Source: Cerasicoccus arenae | Lineage (GTDB): Bacteria; Verrucomicrobiota; Verrucomicrobiia; Opitutales; Cerasicoccaceae | DNA length: 64,000 bases | Assembly: GCF_014651635.1 (NCBI RefSeq) | Contig: NZ_BMXG01000001.1 | Location: forward strand, 163,080-227,079 | Reading direction: 5' to 3' | In this document: piece by piece, positions 11,235 through 17,245 of the stretch | Numbering within the stretch: position 1 is the stretch's first letter | How the letters are laid out: each line of letters opens with the position of its first letter | Translations under genes and position numbers: made by a program | Notes under the pieces: model-generated | Database searches by the model: none | The model's input: only the letters and a program-made list of their open reading frames with translations | Told to the model about the DNA's origin: nothing

Positions 11235-11669
11235 TTAATTTTTAATCTTCAACTTCGCTTCCAAAAGCCGCTTCATCGCGGCCAGCGTTTCATCACTGAT
11301 GTGGTGCTCCAGTCCTTCCGCATCAGCGTGAGCCTGAGTTTCAGAAACTCCGATCGCCCGGAGAAAATCGACCACCAGATTGTGACGCACCGCAGAGGCA
11401 GCGGCCATTTTTCGGCCTTCATCGGTCAACTGTAATCCATCGCCGGAACGATCCAACAAACCTCGTTTCTCGAAGCGTTGTAGAGCACGCACGACCGATA
11501 CATGCGTAACCCCAAAAATCTCCTGTAAGTCCGTGACCCTCGCGACTTGGCCGGCCTCAATCAGATCGTAGATTGCTTCCACGTAATCCTGAGCCAGTTC
11601 GTTGGAATGCTGCCGTCGCACACGCTGGTGTCGTCGGGCTGCCGTCTGGTTGTCATTACCCGTCGCCAT
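11235..11669 (-). CDS. mntR: Manganese-responsive DtxR-family regulator MntR
   Basis: 144-residue Mn(II)-dependent transcriptional repressor. The winged helix-turn-helix covers about residues 24-75 (VTDLQEIFGVTHVSVVRALQ), followed by the dimerisation helix. The MntR metal-site residues are all in place: Asp28 and Glu31 (QDYVEAIY), His96 (RHNLV), and Glu118, Glu121 and His122 (AEGLEHH). The open frame extends 25 codons further upstream, but the ATG at 11669 has GGTGAGG at a suitable distance, fits family length and keeps the start outside the operator region. It faces the manganese transport genes across three tandem palindromes, which it probably binds. Confidence 0.9.
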   Translation of the reverse strand: MATGNDNQTAARRHQRVRRQHSNELAQDYVEAIYDLIEAGQVARVTDLQEIFGVTHVSVVRALQRFEKRGLLDRSGDGLQLTDEGRKMAAASAVRHNLVVDFLRAIGVSETQAHADAEGLEHHISDETLAAMKRLLEAKLKIKN

Positions 11670-11713
11670 CATCCTCACCAAACCGTAACGAAAATATGTT
11701 GACAAGCAAATAA

Positions 11714-11775
11714 TGTAGCACAGGCTACATAACCAATGTAGCACAGGCTACATAACCAATGTAGCACGCGCTACA
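11714..11775. promoter_or_regulatory. Triple tandem MntR operator candidate
   Basis: Three copies of a 16-base perfect-arm palindrome, TGTAGC-N4-GCTACA, at 11714-11729, 11737-11752 and 11760-11775. The spacers are ACAG, ACAG and ACGC, and the period is exactly 23 bases. A TTGACA (11699-11704) lies just upstream as a possible -35 element. The array fills the gap between mntR and the porin start and ends five bases before the porin ATG. Position and symmetry make it the likely site through which MntR represses both directions. Confidence 0.85.
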
Positions 11776-11780
11776 TAAGC

Positions 11781-13067
11781 ATGATTCTACCAAAACAACT
11801 TACCACTAAAACATTAACGCTCATGGCTTTCTTCATCTGTTCGGCGCTTTTGGCAACACCCGGCAGCAATGCCGACCCTGCCTACGATGAGCTGCGCCTG
11901 ACCAATGACGCCTTTGGTGAAGATTGGATGAAAGCCGAAGGTGCCACGGGCTCTTGGGGTGGCTTACGGCCACAGCTCGAAGACCATGGACTCTCCCCTT
12001 TCGCCTCTGCAACGGGCCAATTCCTTGCCAATGTCGATGGCGGCTACGACGACGATTCGGCCTGGGAAATTCTCATCGACTTCGGTCTCGAAGTGGATTT
12101 GGAGAAGCTTGTCGGCTGGACCGGTGGCGCATTCTTTATCAACGCATTCTACTTCCATGGCAACGACTTGAGTGGGAACGGCATCGGAGATTTCAACGGC
12201 GTGAGCAACATCTACACGGGGACCGACGTCAACGTCTTCAATCTTTATGCATCGCAAAGCTTATTCGAGGGCAGGCTCTATCTGAAAGCCGGGCAAATTG
12301 CGGCAGACGATGACTTCATGGCGGCTGATACTGCGCTGATCTTTATCAATTCATGCTTTGGGCCCATCCTCACGGAATCCGGCAACATTGCCGCGCCAAT
12401 CTACCCACTCGCCGCACCCGGGGCGCTGGTTAACTACGAACCGTTCGAGGGCTGGCAAGTTCTCGGTGCCGTTTACGCTGGCGATGCCGGGCCGAACCAG
12501 CCCAGCAATCATGGTTTTGAGTGGCGCACTGGCGGCAGCGCTGGCTGGGCTTGGTTTGGCGAGACTGGCGTTGATTATAATCTACTCGGACACGGCATTT
12601 TTAAACTCGGCGGTTTTTACGCCACGGGCGACTTTACGAATTTCTCCACGGGTGGGACGGAAGATGGACTCGGCGCGGTCTATGGCATCATTGACCATCA
12701 ATTGCTCGATCCCAAGGGTGATCCCCTCGGCCTCAGCTTATTTTGCCGGGGGAGCTTCTCTCCCGACGAGTCACTGGCCACCGTCACTGCTTTCGTCGAT
12801 GGAGGCTTTTCATTGCAAAGTATCTTTATTGCGTCCGATGCCTTTGGTGTCGCTGCCTCGCATGCTTGGTTTGGTAACGACTACCGAAACGCAAGTTTAC
12901 TGGGAGGAACGCCGGTTACTGCCAGCGAAACAGTCGTCGAGGTCACCTACACGGCTGACCTCACCAGTTGGCTGTCCATGCAGCCCGACCTGCAATACAT
13001 AATCAATCCGCACTACAGCGAAAGCGATGCCCTCATCATCGGTATCCGTTGTGCCATGAATCTTTAA
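11781..13067 (+). CDS. OprB-family outer-membrane porin, linked to manganese uptake
   Basis: 428-residue secreted outer-membrane protein. A signal peptide is visible (KQLTTKTLTL, then MAFFICSALLATPGSNA). The early motif GSWGGLRPQLEDHGL matches the xNWGGxRxxLxxxG signature of carbohydrate-selective porins of the OprB family. The C-terminus ends with a typical beta-strand pattern. The start at 11781 leaves only five bases after the third operator copy and no Shine-Dalgarno sequence; a second ATG at 11823 would truncate the basic n-region. It is first in the manganese transport operon, so it probably lets Mn(II) or a chelate through the outer membrane rather than sugar. That role is inferred from position. 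Confidence 0.85.
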   Translation: MILPKQLTTKTLTLMAFFICSALLATPGSNADPAYDELRLTNDAFGEDWMKAEGATGSWGGLRPQLEDHGLSPFASATGQFLANVDGGYDDDSAWEILIDFGLEVDLEKLVGWTGGAFFINAFYFHGNDLSGNGIGDFNGVSNIYTGTDVNVFNLYASQSLFEGRLYLKAGQIAADDDFMAADTALIFINSCFGPILTESGNIAAPIYPLAAPGALVNYEPFEGWQVLGAVYAGDAGPNQPSNHGFEWRTGGSAGWAWFGETGVDYNLLGHGIFKLGGFYATGDFTNFSTGGTEDGLGAVYGIIDHQLLDPKGDPLGLSLFCRGSFSPDESLATVTAFVDGGFSLQSIFIASDAFGVAASHAWFGNDYRNASLLGGTPVTASETVVEVTYTADLTSWLSMQPDLQYIINPHYSESDALIIGIRCAMNL

Positions 13068-13080
13068 TCTCCATATAAGT

Positions 13081-14046
13081 ATGTACCGGCAACTCATTCA
13101 AACAATAGTCCTTTTCATCGTGCTCATGGGTTCCCTGCACGTGCAGGCCGTGCCGAAAAAATATCCCTATCAGGCGGTCACCACTGTGGGCATGATTACC
13201 GACATCGTCCGAAATGTCGCAGGTGATAAAGCCGACGTCGAAGGCCTGATTGGCGAGGGCATCGACCCTCACCTCTACAAGCCCACCCGCAACGACCTGA
13301 TTGCTCTCAAACGCGCGGACATTGTTTTCTACAACGGCCTTATGCTCGAAGGTAAGATGGCCGATGTCCTGATGAAAATTGCCCGCAGCAAACCCGTTTA
13401 TGCTGTCACGGAAGGCATCGAAGACGAGGGTGACTATGTGCTGAACACTGAAGCCCAGCACTTTGACCCACATGTATGGATGGACGTGAGTGGCTGGATT
13501 CACGCTACACGAGTCGTCGCTGAGAGCCTTTCCGAATACGATCCGAAGAACGCGACTTTTTATCAGGAAAACGCTAACGCTTATATTACCCAGCTCAAGA
13601 AGCTCGACAACTATGCGCGGGAAGTCCTTGCAACGATCCCCGAAAACCAACGTATCCTTGTCACCGCACACGATGCCTTTAATTATATGGGACGCGCGTA
13701 TGGCCTTCAGGTCAAGGGCATTCAGGGTCTCAGCACTGAGTCCGAAGCGGGCGTCCGCGACATCGAACATCTCGTGTCCTTTTTGGTGGAAAATAAAATC
13801 CCGGCGGTATTCGTCGAGACTTCGGTGTCCGATAAAAATGTCCGCGCCCTAGTCGAAGGAGCTGGTGCCCAAGGACATATGCTCGTCATTGGCGGCTCAC
13901 TCTACTCTGACGCCATGGGCAAGACTGGTTCCTACGAAGGTACCTACATCGGCATGATCGACCACAATGTCACCATTATTTCCCGCGCCCTCGGCGGCTC
14001 TCCACCGGAAAATGGCATGCAAAACAAATTAGCAACCGCACACTAA
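13081..14046 (+). CDS. Manganese/zinc ABC transporter substrate-binding protein (TroA/PsaA family)
   Basis: 321-residue periplasmic binding protein. The N-terminus MYRQ plus a hydrophobic stretch ending HVQA looks like a signal peptide. Metal-ligand regions of cluster A-I proteins are present: His in DPHLYKPTRND, His in FDPHVWMDV, His in VTAHDAFNYMG, and Asp in ETSVSDKN. There is no His-rich loop, which is more typical of Mn/Fe than of Zn proteins. It begins 13 bases after the porin and precedes the ATPase and permeases. MntR control makes manganese the best guess. Confidence 0.9.
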   Translation: MYRQLIQTIVLFIVLMGSLHVQAVPKKYPYQAVTTVGMITDIVRNVAGDKADVEGLIGEGIDPHLYKPTRNDLIALKRADIVFYNGLMLEGKMADVLMKIARSKPVYAVTEGIEDEGDYVLNTEAQHFDPHVWMDVSGWIHATRVVAESLSEYDPKNATFYQENANAYITQLKKLDNYAREVLATIPENQRILVTAHDAFNYMGRAYGLQVKGIQGLSTESEAGVRDIEHLVSFLVENKIPAVFVETSVSDKNVRALVEGAGAQGHMLVIGGSLYSDAMGKTGSYEGTYIGMIDHNVTIISRALGGSPPENGMQNKLATAH

Positions 14047-14086: not shown

Positions 14087-14902
14087 ATGAAAACTAAATC
14101 CTACAACAGTGCGAAAACACTGCCAGCGGATGACCATTCACCGCAGGCACCGCTGTCCATCCACGATCTGACCGTCGCCTACCACCGCAAGCCCGTGCTC
14201 TGGGACATTGATTTGGACATCCCCGAGGGCAAATTAGTGGGCATCGTCGGGCCCAATGGCGCGGGTAAAAGTACCCTGATCAAAGCCTGTCTCGACCTCA
14301 TCCCGACGGCCTCCGGCCTAGTCCAAGTTTACGGCCAACCCTACAAGAAACAACGCGCCATGGTCGGCTACGTGCCACAGCGTGAAAGCGTCGACTGGGA
14401 CTTCCCCGTCAGCGCATTGGATGTCGTGACAATGGGCCTTTATCGCGACATTGGCTGGTTCAAAACCGTTCGTAAAAAGCACAAAGAGATCGCCCGATCC
14501 GCCCTCGATCGAGTGGGCATTGCCCATCTTGCCGACCGCCAGATCAGCCAGCTTTCAGGCGGCCAGCAGCAGCGAGTATTCCTCGCCCGCGCCCTCGCGC
14601 AGGACGCTACGCTTTACTTTATGGACGAGCCCTTTGCTGCGGTTGACGCCGCCACGGAGCGCGCCATCGTCACCTTGCTCAAAGACTTAAAAAATCAAGG
14701 AAAGACCACGCTCGTCGTCCACCATGACCTCGCCACGGTCTCACAATATTTCGACTGGGTCATCCTGCTGAATATGCGCGTGGTCGCCGCTGGCCCAACG
14801 GAAGAAGTCTTCACCGCTGAGAATCTCCACCGCACCTACGGTGGTAAGCTGACGTTGCTCGCCGAAGCCGGACACGCCCTCAGCCAGATCAAACGGCCAT
14901 GA
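14087..14902 (+). CDS. Manganese/metal ABC transporter ATP-binding protein
   Basis: 271-residue ABC ATPase of the ZnuC/MntB type that energises metal import. Walker A is GPNGAGKST, the signature is [17 protein letters not shown], Walker B is LYFMDEP, and the switch His is in VVHHDLATV. The stop overlaps the start of the first permease (ATGA, 14899-14902), so translation is coupled. The 25-residue N-terminal extension before the ABC core is unremarkable. Confidence 0.93.
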
Positions 14903-16314
14903 TCCCCCCCCCCTTAGCCGCACTCACCAGCCTGCACGACACCGGCGCGGACTGGCCGTCGTTGGATGTTGTCTGGCGCGTGCTTACCTTACAGGATTAC
15001 AACACGCGGCTCGTCGTCATGAGCACAATGATCTTGGGCTTGGCCTCAGGTCTGGTCGGTTGTTTTTTACTGCTGCGCAAACGCTCGCTGATGGGTGACG
15101 CGCTGTCTCATGCGACTCTGCCGGGCATTGGCTTGGCGTTTATTGTGATGGCATCGATGGGCGGGACGGGCAAACACTTGGTCGGGCTCTTAGTGGGTGC
15201 CACGGTTACGGGCGTCATCGGCGTGATCATGGTGCTAGTCGTGCGTAACACGTCCCGCATCAAGGATGATGCCGCAATGGGCATCGTGCTGAGCGTATTT
15301 TTCGGTCTAGGCATGGTGGTGCTAAGCATGGTTCTCAGTATGCCAAGCGGCCATGCCGCGGGGCTGGAATCTTTCATCTACGGCAAAACAGCGTCGATGA
15401 TCATGCAGGATTTCCTGCTCCTTTCAGGCGTGGCGGCAATCGCCCTGCTCTGCTCCCTGCTGCTCCTCAAAGAATTCACGTTGCTGTGTTTCGACGAAGG
15501 CTTCGGACGTAGTCAGGGCTGGCCGATTCATGGGCTGGACATAATCCTGCTCGGCCTAGTCGCGCTAGTCACCGTAGTTGGGCTGCAAGCCGTCGGACTA
15601 ATCTTAATCATCGCGTTCCTTATTACCCCTGCTGCAGCGGCGCGTTTCTGGACGAATGACTTGCGAAATATGCTAATCTTATCCGCCCTCATTGGCGGGG
15701 TTAGTGGCTGGTGCGGCGCGTCGATCAGCGCCTTGTTGCCCCGGTTGCCAGCAGGAGCCGTCATCGTGCTCGTTGCGGCGGCTTTTTTCGTATTCAGCCT
15801 CTTTTTCGGCAAAACGCGAGGCGTGGTAAGGACCCGGCTGGCAATGTACCGCCTCAAGCGAAAAGTTGGCCGTCAACACCTACTGCGTGCGGTGTATGAG
15901 ATCCAGGAGGCCGCTTGTGCCGAGACGGGCAAGCCACCAGCGAACATCGCCATTCCCTTCCGCGACCTCCTGCTTCATCGCTCATGGAGTCCCGCACATG
16001 TCCGCCAAGACCTGCGACGCGCCAAAAACGAGGACCATATCGACCAATTTGATGGCCAGTCTCTCCGCTTATCTGAATCAGGCTTTGGCGAAGCGGCGCG
16101 TATCACCCGAAACCATCGACTTTGGGAGATATTTCTGATCACCCATGCCGACATCGCCGCCAGCCATGTGGACCGCGACGCCGATTCCGTCGAACACGTT
16201 TTAAGTCCGGACATGGTCCGTGAACTTGAGCAACGTCTCGACCTGGACTCCATTCCGGAAAGCCCACACTATATTTCACCCCAAAAAGATCGCCCTCATG
16301 ACATGGTTCGTTGA
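14899..16314 (+). CDS. Metal ABC transporter permease fused to a DtxR/MntR-like domain
   Basis: 471 residues in two parts. Residues about 30-305 form a ZnuB/MntC-type permease with about eight membrane helices. Residues about 320-450 resemble a complete DtxR-family unit: a winged-helix region ([11 protein letters not shown], then [12 protein letters not shown]) followed by the metal/dimerisation segment [22 protein letters not shown]. The MntR metal residues are partly conserved as His406, Asp429 (Glu in MntR), Glu432 and His433 (DSVEHVLS). The tail may sense cytoplasmic metal and gate the transporter. A run of 10 C follows the start codon directly. The gene overlaps its neighbours at both ends (4 and 17 bases). 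Confidence 0.9.
14904..14913 (+). repeat. Poly-C tract (10 nt) just after a permease start codon
   Basis: Ten C directly after ATG AT, encoding Ile-Pro-Pro-Pro. A slip would abolish the permease at codon 2-5, which makes this a candidate on/off switch for metal import. Confidence 0.6.
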
Positions 16315-17245
16315 CGACACTTGGATTGTCATTATCGGCGCGTTAACCGCCATCGCCTGCGCTCTGCCCGGCTGTTTCCTGGTGCTGCGGCAAATGAGCA
16401 TGATGGGCGACGCAATTAGCCACGCCGTCCTCCCCGGCCTCGCAATCGCATTTCTCGTCACGGGTGAACGGGCAAGCTTCACGATGTTCATTGGCGCAGC
16501 GGTTGTTGGTGTGCTGACAGCGGTCTTCACTCAGTGGATCAGCAGCTTGGGAAAAGTTGATCGCGGGGCCTCCATGGGCATCGTGTTTACCACTCTGTTC
16601 GCGCTCGGCCTACTACTGATCGTGCAGGCGGCGGACCATGTAGACCTCGACCCCGGCTGCGTGCTTTATGGCGCAATCGAAATGACCACACTTGATGTCG
16701 CCTGGGAATTTCAACTCGGCGAGACTTGGATCGAAGTCCCCCGCGCCGCTATGGTGCTTGGCTCCGTTGCGCTGTTTAACCTGATCATCGTGGTTGCGTT
16801 CTTTAAGGAGCTGAAAATCAGCGCCTTCGATCCCGAACTGGCAACCACGCAAGGAATTAACGCCAACTTTATGCATTACCTGCTGATGACGCAGGTCGCG
16901 GTCACAACCGTGGCAGCGTTTGAGGTTGTGGGCAGTATTATTGTCATCGCAATGCTAGTAACGCCTGCCGCCACCGCACATTTGCTGACCGATCGGCTCG
17001 GCCTAATGCTGTTACTGAGCGCGATCATCGGCGCATTAGCAGCAGGGCTTGGCCATCTGCTCGCAATCGTGATTCCGCCACTGATCGGCTTCGACGGCAC
17101 GACGACTTCAGGTATGATGGCCGTAACGACAGGGCTCCTCTTCGTCCTAGCCTGGCTCTTCGCGCCACGCTACGGCTGGATATCGCGTTTAGTCTCCCGC
17201 AAAGACGTCAAATCACCCTTTTCCGGTCCCCTCCCCTCTGATTGA
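16298..17245 (+). CDS. Second metal ABC transporter permease
   Basis: About 315 residues and eight predicted membrane helices, ZnuB/MntC family. It aligns with the first permease: QMSMMGDAISHAVLPGLAIAF matches the [18 protein letters not shown] region there. It has no DtxR-like tail. The start is taken at ATG 16298 ([12 protein letters not shown]); an upstream ATG at 16220 lies well inside the previous gene and would add a hydrophilic leader. The two permeases probably form a heterodimer with the ATPase at 14087. Confidence 0.9.
   Translation: MTWFVDDTWIVIIGALTAIACALPGCFLVLRQMSMMGDAISHAVLPGLAIAFLVTGERASFTMFIGAAVVGVLTAVFTQWISSLGKVDRGASMGIVFTTLFALGLLLIVQAADHVDLDPGCVLYGAIEMTTLDVAWEFQLGETWIEVPRAAMVLGSVALFNLIIVVAFFKELKISAFDPELATTQGINANFMHYLLMTQVAVTTVAAFEVVGSIIVIAMLVTPAATAHLLTDRLGLMLLLSAIIGALAAGLGHLLAIVIPPLIGFDGTTTSGMMAVTTGLLFVLAWLFAPRYGWISRLVSRKDVKSPFSGPLPSD

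Follow-up and report, generated by a model that had tools for sequence, protein, structure and literature searches.

Three perfect palindromes lie between mntR and a divergent porin-troABCD-type operon of Cerasicoccus arenae, and we put the probability at about 0.9 that they form the operator of the two promoters, with each palindrome binding one MntR dimer. For the window, that is, the whole stretch of 64,000 nucleotides analysed here, the evidence is of sequence, conservation, co-occurrence with MntR, target genes and conserved manganese-ligand residues; MntR binding, repression, the identity of the metal and the overlap with the promoter are inferred. The metal sensed is likely to be manganese, with zinc as a possibility. 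When metal (most likely Mn(II)) is sufficient, metal-loaded MntR would occupy the boxes beside, and probably over, promoter elements, and the bound protein would keep both the porin-ABC uptake operon and mntR itself from being transcribed; under metal scarcity, MntR would be released and uptake turned on. Several perfect sites would be expected to keep occupancy high and to make the switch steep or nearly complete.

The array and its neighbouring genes

The features on which the argument turns are as follows.

11235-11672, minus strand: mntR, encoding an E. coli-type MntR of the DtxR superfamily, 145 aa, without a FeoA/SH3 domain
11699-11704, plus strand: TTGACA, candidate -35 element of the porin/tro promoter, from its sequence and a fixed 7-bp gap to the nearest box
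11713-11730, unstranded: predicted MntR box 1, ATGTAGC-ACAG-GCTACAT, perfect 7-bp arms, nearest to mntR and conserved before mntR in relatives
11736-11753, unstranded: predicted MntR box 2, ATGTAGC-ACAG-GCTACAT, its 23-bp unit including the linker the same as that of box 1
11759-11776, unstranded: predicted MntR box 3, ATGTAGC-ACGC-GCTACAT, 4 bp upstream of the porin start codon
11781-13067, plus strand: OprB-family porin (PF04966, E=9e-51), first gene of the operon
13081-14046, plus strand: troA-like metal-binding protein (PF01297, E=3e-82; best PDB match Treponema TroA 1toa, E=3e-79)
14087-14902, plus strand: troB-like ABC ATPase (PF00005; nearest NCBIfam models are Mn/Fe ABC ATPases)
14899-16314, plus strand: troC-like permease with a C-terminal DtxR-type domain, YtgCR-like (PF00950 at residues 36-303, PF02742 at 393-448)
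16220-17245, plus strand: troD-like permease (PF00950, E=6e-47)

The pattern TGTAGC-N4-GCTACA is exact at 11714-11729, 11737-11752 and 11760-11775, which bears out the three copies at exact 23-base spacing reported in the first-pass annotation; the true arm length is 7 bp (ATGTAGC-N4-GCTACAT), each palindrome measuring 18 bp. The copies repeat head to tail every 23 bp, and Tandem Repeats Finder describes the region as a 23-bp unit in 2.9 copies with 95% matches (11712-11778). The same annotation had the array filling the mntR-porin gap; it does sit in that gap, but the two start codons, that of mntR at 11672 (complement) and that of the porin at 11781, have 108 bp between them, of which the array takes up only 64. 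Chance origin of the palindromes is ruled out by the expected counts: at the base composition of the window the 14-base palindrome is expected 0.0001 times per 64 kb, and for the 12-base core the expectation over the full 4.13-Mb genome is 0.23; a genome-wide pattern search finds one more exact 12-base site beyond the array.

The array stands between mntR and the operon, which are divergent. The mntR product carries the helix-turn-helix domain PF01325 (2.9e-9) and the iron/manganese-dependent dimerisation domain PF02742 (6.1e-14), and its closest PDB structure is E. coli MntR (2h09, E=9e-23). Its best NCBIfam model is NF008273 MntR at 140.2 bits, under the equivalog cut-off of 153, and the protein is therefore filed as an MntR relative and not as a curated equivalog. 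All six manganese ligands, which we take to be D8, E11, H77, E99, E102 and H103 in B. subtilis MntR numbering, are invariant in the window protein and 22 aligned relatives. In alignments, the TroA-type binding protein of the operon carries the third His ligand position, as in TroA; a third His is typical of TroA and zinc proteins, with Glu in its place in the manganese-specific PsaA/MntA, and zinc or mixed specificity is thus possible. Elsewhere in the C. arenae genome five Fur-family proteins are encoded, and neither an NRAMP gene nor a stand-alone DtxR-type protein other than MntR was found there.

Conservation in relatives

The first-pass annotation had proposed an MntR operator and had made the proposal depend on the palindrome standing before metal genes in relatives. 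It is present there, and phylogenetic footprinting and co-occurrence with mntR support the assignment. All four genus members carry the palindrome before mntR in 1-3 copies (in G003 as a 2-mismatch form), as do members of several other families of the order, and where mntR is elsewhere in the genome the tro operon carries a box of its own (L055, L056, L059, L060, L067). A search of 273 genomes of the order gave 24 exact matches to the 14-base site, against 4 scattered ones for a reversed control motif. Of the 24, 21 adjoin mntR or tro. The remaining three precede outer-membrane or outer-membrane-like proteins (L058, L057, L061). The box in L058 lies before a CQNC-type TonB receptor and a thioredoxin-fold protein, and G004 (L069) has a second CQNC receptor, divergent from a triple-box mntR; OprB porins and CQNC TonB receptors would in this way be tied to the uptake of manganese or other metal. 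Among the sampled genomes of the phylum, no exact 14-base site was found outside the order.

Several neighbouring observations deserve mention in their own right. In L057 (4179-4919) and L061 (4215-4925) the box lies two bases upstream of outer-membrane-like proteins of 236-246 aa that belong to no Pfam family, are related to one another at E=2e-4 and are candidate metal channels. In L074 (5949-8469) two boxes lie between mntR and a divergent feoAB, which points to MntR control of ferrous iron uptake there. In one genus of the family (L080, L081, L082) DtxR-FeoA fusion regulators are preceded by variant boxes that have TAAC/GTTA as one arm; in L081 feoB follows the fusion gene. These variant boxes may be the site of a related iron regulator.

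The conservation also bears on a rival reading, in which the palindromes work at the RNA level, as hairpins of a terminator, an attenuator or a leader, or are no more than the product of a passive tandem duplication. Each could form a hairpin of 6-7 bp, there is one weak terminator-like match on the minus strand, and the identical linker of boxes 1 and 2 does indicate a recent tandem duplication. However, the arms are conserved in sequence and not just in pairing, in different families and at unlinked loci, before divergent promoters, and the stability of one such RNA hairpin is modest (-8.5 kcal/mol, z -1.9). We consider this rival reading very improbable, and MntR binding to the DNA palindromes remains the preferred reading.

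Which protein binds the boxes

Within a set of 88 genomes the exact box occurs in 13 of 23 that encode MntR and in none of 65 that lack it (Fisher p=1e-9, a value that overstates the evidence since the genomes are related, and is indicative only). MntR was likewise encoded in all nine box genomes that were checked separately. Ten of the 23 MntR-encoding genomes are without the exact 14-base box; G003, G012 and G036 have boxes with 1-2 mismatches in its place, and in the others no mismatch version was seen either.

The operon itself supplies another potential binder, the DtxR-type domain fused to its permease (14899-16314). That domain is present and conserved, and there is precedent in Chlamydia YtgCR, whose YtgR part binds its own promoter in iron-dependent self-repression of the operon (PMC6504234, PMC5599777). 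Yet the exact box is found in 0 of the 24 genomes that have the fused permease and no MntR, which makes the fused domain an unlikely binder; conversely, G043 and G085 have MntR and the exact box without the fused permease, and boxes also stand before mntR itself and before outer-membrane proteins. We therefore think it improbable that the fused domain, and not MntR, binds the boxes. The permease-DtxR fusion architecture occurs widely in the order, in many cases in genomes that have no separate MntR.

A different kind of competitor emerged from a scan for tandem TGTAGC-N4-GCTACA in named genomes of 85,000 species, which gave at least 115 array loci. Among the matches listed, fourteen have a linked MntR homologue and come, where titled, from Planctomycetes and Chlamydiae. 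By contrast, 79 of the 115 (within L089-L203) are TGTAGC-RNNY-GCTACA arrays beside tetR, in Alphaproteobacteria, Actinobacteria and others, and are linked to one TetR-containing gene cluster, so that the window array might itself be taken for the site of a TetR-family regulator. We give this hardly any credence. The centre is RNNY in 159 of 159 TetR-linked boxes but in only 1 of 29 boxes of the window and order loci; it is MNNK in 23 of the 29 boxes of the order (the window included) and, among the MntR-linked arrays from elsewhere, in 16 of 28 boxes. No homologue of the TetR of that cluster was found in the C. arenae genome (in a search without a positive control), and the loci of relatives showed no tetR next to the array. 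The RNNY arrays are apparently a widespread TetR operator, with arms as in the MntR box and a different centre. Since these look-alike arrays share the arms, an MntR box has to be recognised by its centre and the neighbouring genes and not by the arms alone, and it can now be separated from a TetR look-alike with which a plain pattern search would confuse it. Five further loci (L100, L107, L161, L189, L193; Bacteroidales/Prevotellaceae where titled) have TGTAGC-N4-GCTACA in multiple copies at 23, 42 or 46 bp with no mntR or tetR nearby, and resemble intergenic repeat families.

For the MntR box of the order we propose the consensus ATGTAGC-MNNK-GCTACAT. The literature searched yielded no MntR-box consensus for the order and no paper on TGTAGC as an MntR site.

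Spacing, cooperativity and the promoter

Next to mntR the boxes are spaced 23-24 bp within the genus and 24-25 bp in L058 and L074. Other relatives have spacings of 19-56 bp (e.g., 28, 41, 56), one 111-bp pair or a single box, and in the MntR-linked arrays of Planctomycetes and Chlamydiae the spacing is 21-40 bp. Fixed helical phasing as a general rule is ruled out by this variable spacing in relatives and other phyla; the phasing that the first-pass annotation had read into the 23-bp interval is thus not general, since both spacing and copy number vary among relatives. Cooperative binding of MntR on successive faces, which the first-pass annotation took the spacing to suggest, may be plausible, but two of the residues that make the inter-dimer contact in B. 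subtilis, Tyr22 and Arg58, are Val and Asp in the window MntR.

The TTGACA element is the probable -35 of the porin promoter, and if so the boxes would cover that promoter. On the mntR strand it reads TTGTCAA, and the gap to the nearest box is exactly 7 bp both in the window and in five other genomes of the family; CTGTCAA lies at the same distance in one more genome of the order. A consensus scan of the array region gave no complete sigma-70 site. A TACAAT formed by the right half-site stands 16-17 bp after TTGACA in several planctomycete arrays; in Cerasicoccaceae the equivalent TTGACA-TACAAT spacer would be 21 bp, and no -10 element is fixed.

A further site before phoU

The only other exact TGTAGC-N4-GCTACA in the genome lies in the pstB-phoU gap, 47 nt before phoU.

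G000 contig C1:312621-312636 (L004:1501-1516): predicted phoU box, with counterparts in the other genus members (L223, L224, L225)

A box stands before phoU in all four genus genomes, exact in three (C. arenae included) and with one mismatch in the fourth, 47-59 nt upstream of the gene, and the remainder of the pstB-phoU gap aligns poorly among genus members. In the three genomes with the exact phoU box, the mntR array and the phoU site are the only exact sites. Two genomes from other genera of the family have no box before phoU. Part of the conservation of the phoU site might also be due to an RNA hairpin. On balance we lean slightly towards direct control of phoU by MntR in the genus, with manganese status setting phosphate-uptake control. 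The distribution of sites suggests that the MntR regulon consists of mntR, the tro operon and phoU; if true, this small set would couple phosphate control to the sensing of manganese. A search of titles and abstracts turned up no paper in which MntR controls phoU. Sites with a single mismatch at other places in the genome (C2, C8) were considered as further members and rejected, as they have no same-sequence counterpart in other genus members; one-mismatch sites in the genome are far below the count for the reversed-motif control.

Comparison with known systems

By its letters, the array is a lineage variant of the E. coli-type MntR box. The MntR site of E. coli mntH, AAACATAGC-AAAG-GCTATGTTT, has the core TAGC-N4-GCTA in common with the window boxes, and that of mntS, ATATAGC-ACAG-GCTATAT, shares with them the identical TAGCACAGGCTA (TAGC-ACAG-GCTA). 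They part at the outer arm, which is ATG/CAT in the window but ACA/TGT in mntH and ATA/TAT in mntS; against mntH, 11 of 16 arm positions are identical. The first-pass view that this is the lineage's own box, unlike that of E. coli, thus stands for the outer arm; it fails for the core, which is as in E. coli, and Planctomycetes and Chlamydiae also have MntR-linked arrays of a similar kind. The regulators are alike as well, E. coli MntR and the window MntR both being short and lacking the FeoA domain, with sites that in both cases are palindromes of 18-20 bp, whereas the target is a porin-ABC operon in the window and an NRAMP symporter in E. coli.

Multiple MntR sites are not peculiar to this array. 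E. coli mntS has two adjacent MntR sites in an array-like arrangement, and B. subtilis mneP has four 18-bp MntR sites in 84 bp that are bound cooperatively, as established by cryo-EM and biochemistry (PMC11275975); SloR also binds the Streptococcus mutans mntH promoter cooperatively (PMC12096823). The mneP sites are weak and activating, however, whereas the window has three perfect palindromes at 23 bp beside an uptake operon.

In Stenotrophomonas maltophilia a locus of a CQNC TonB receptor and a thioredoxin is MntR-associated and induced by combined manganese and iron limitation, and its synteny has been reported in Opitutales too (PMC13217887). The Stenotrophomonas MntR module comprises mntH, mntP and the CQNC receptor-thioredoxin protein, with MntR boxes before the receptor, which MntR controls; the two relatives with boxes before CQNC receptors (L058, L069) resemble it by target. 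Treponema pallidum troR/troABCD is likewise a troABCD-type operon under a DtxR-family metal repressor, and Chlamydia ytgABCD-YtgR has a permease-repressor fusion (YtgC-YtgR) as in the window. Unlike both, the window has a separate divergent mntR and places an OprB porin first in the operon.
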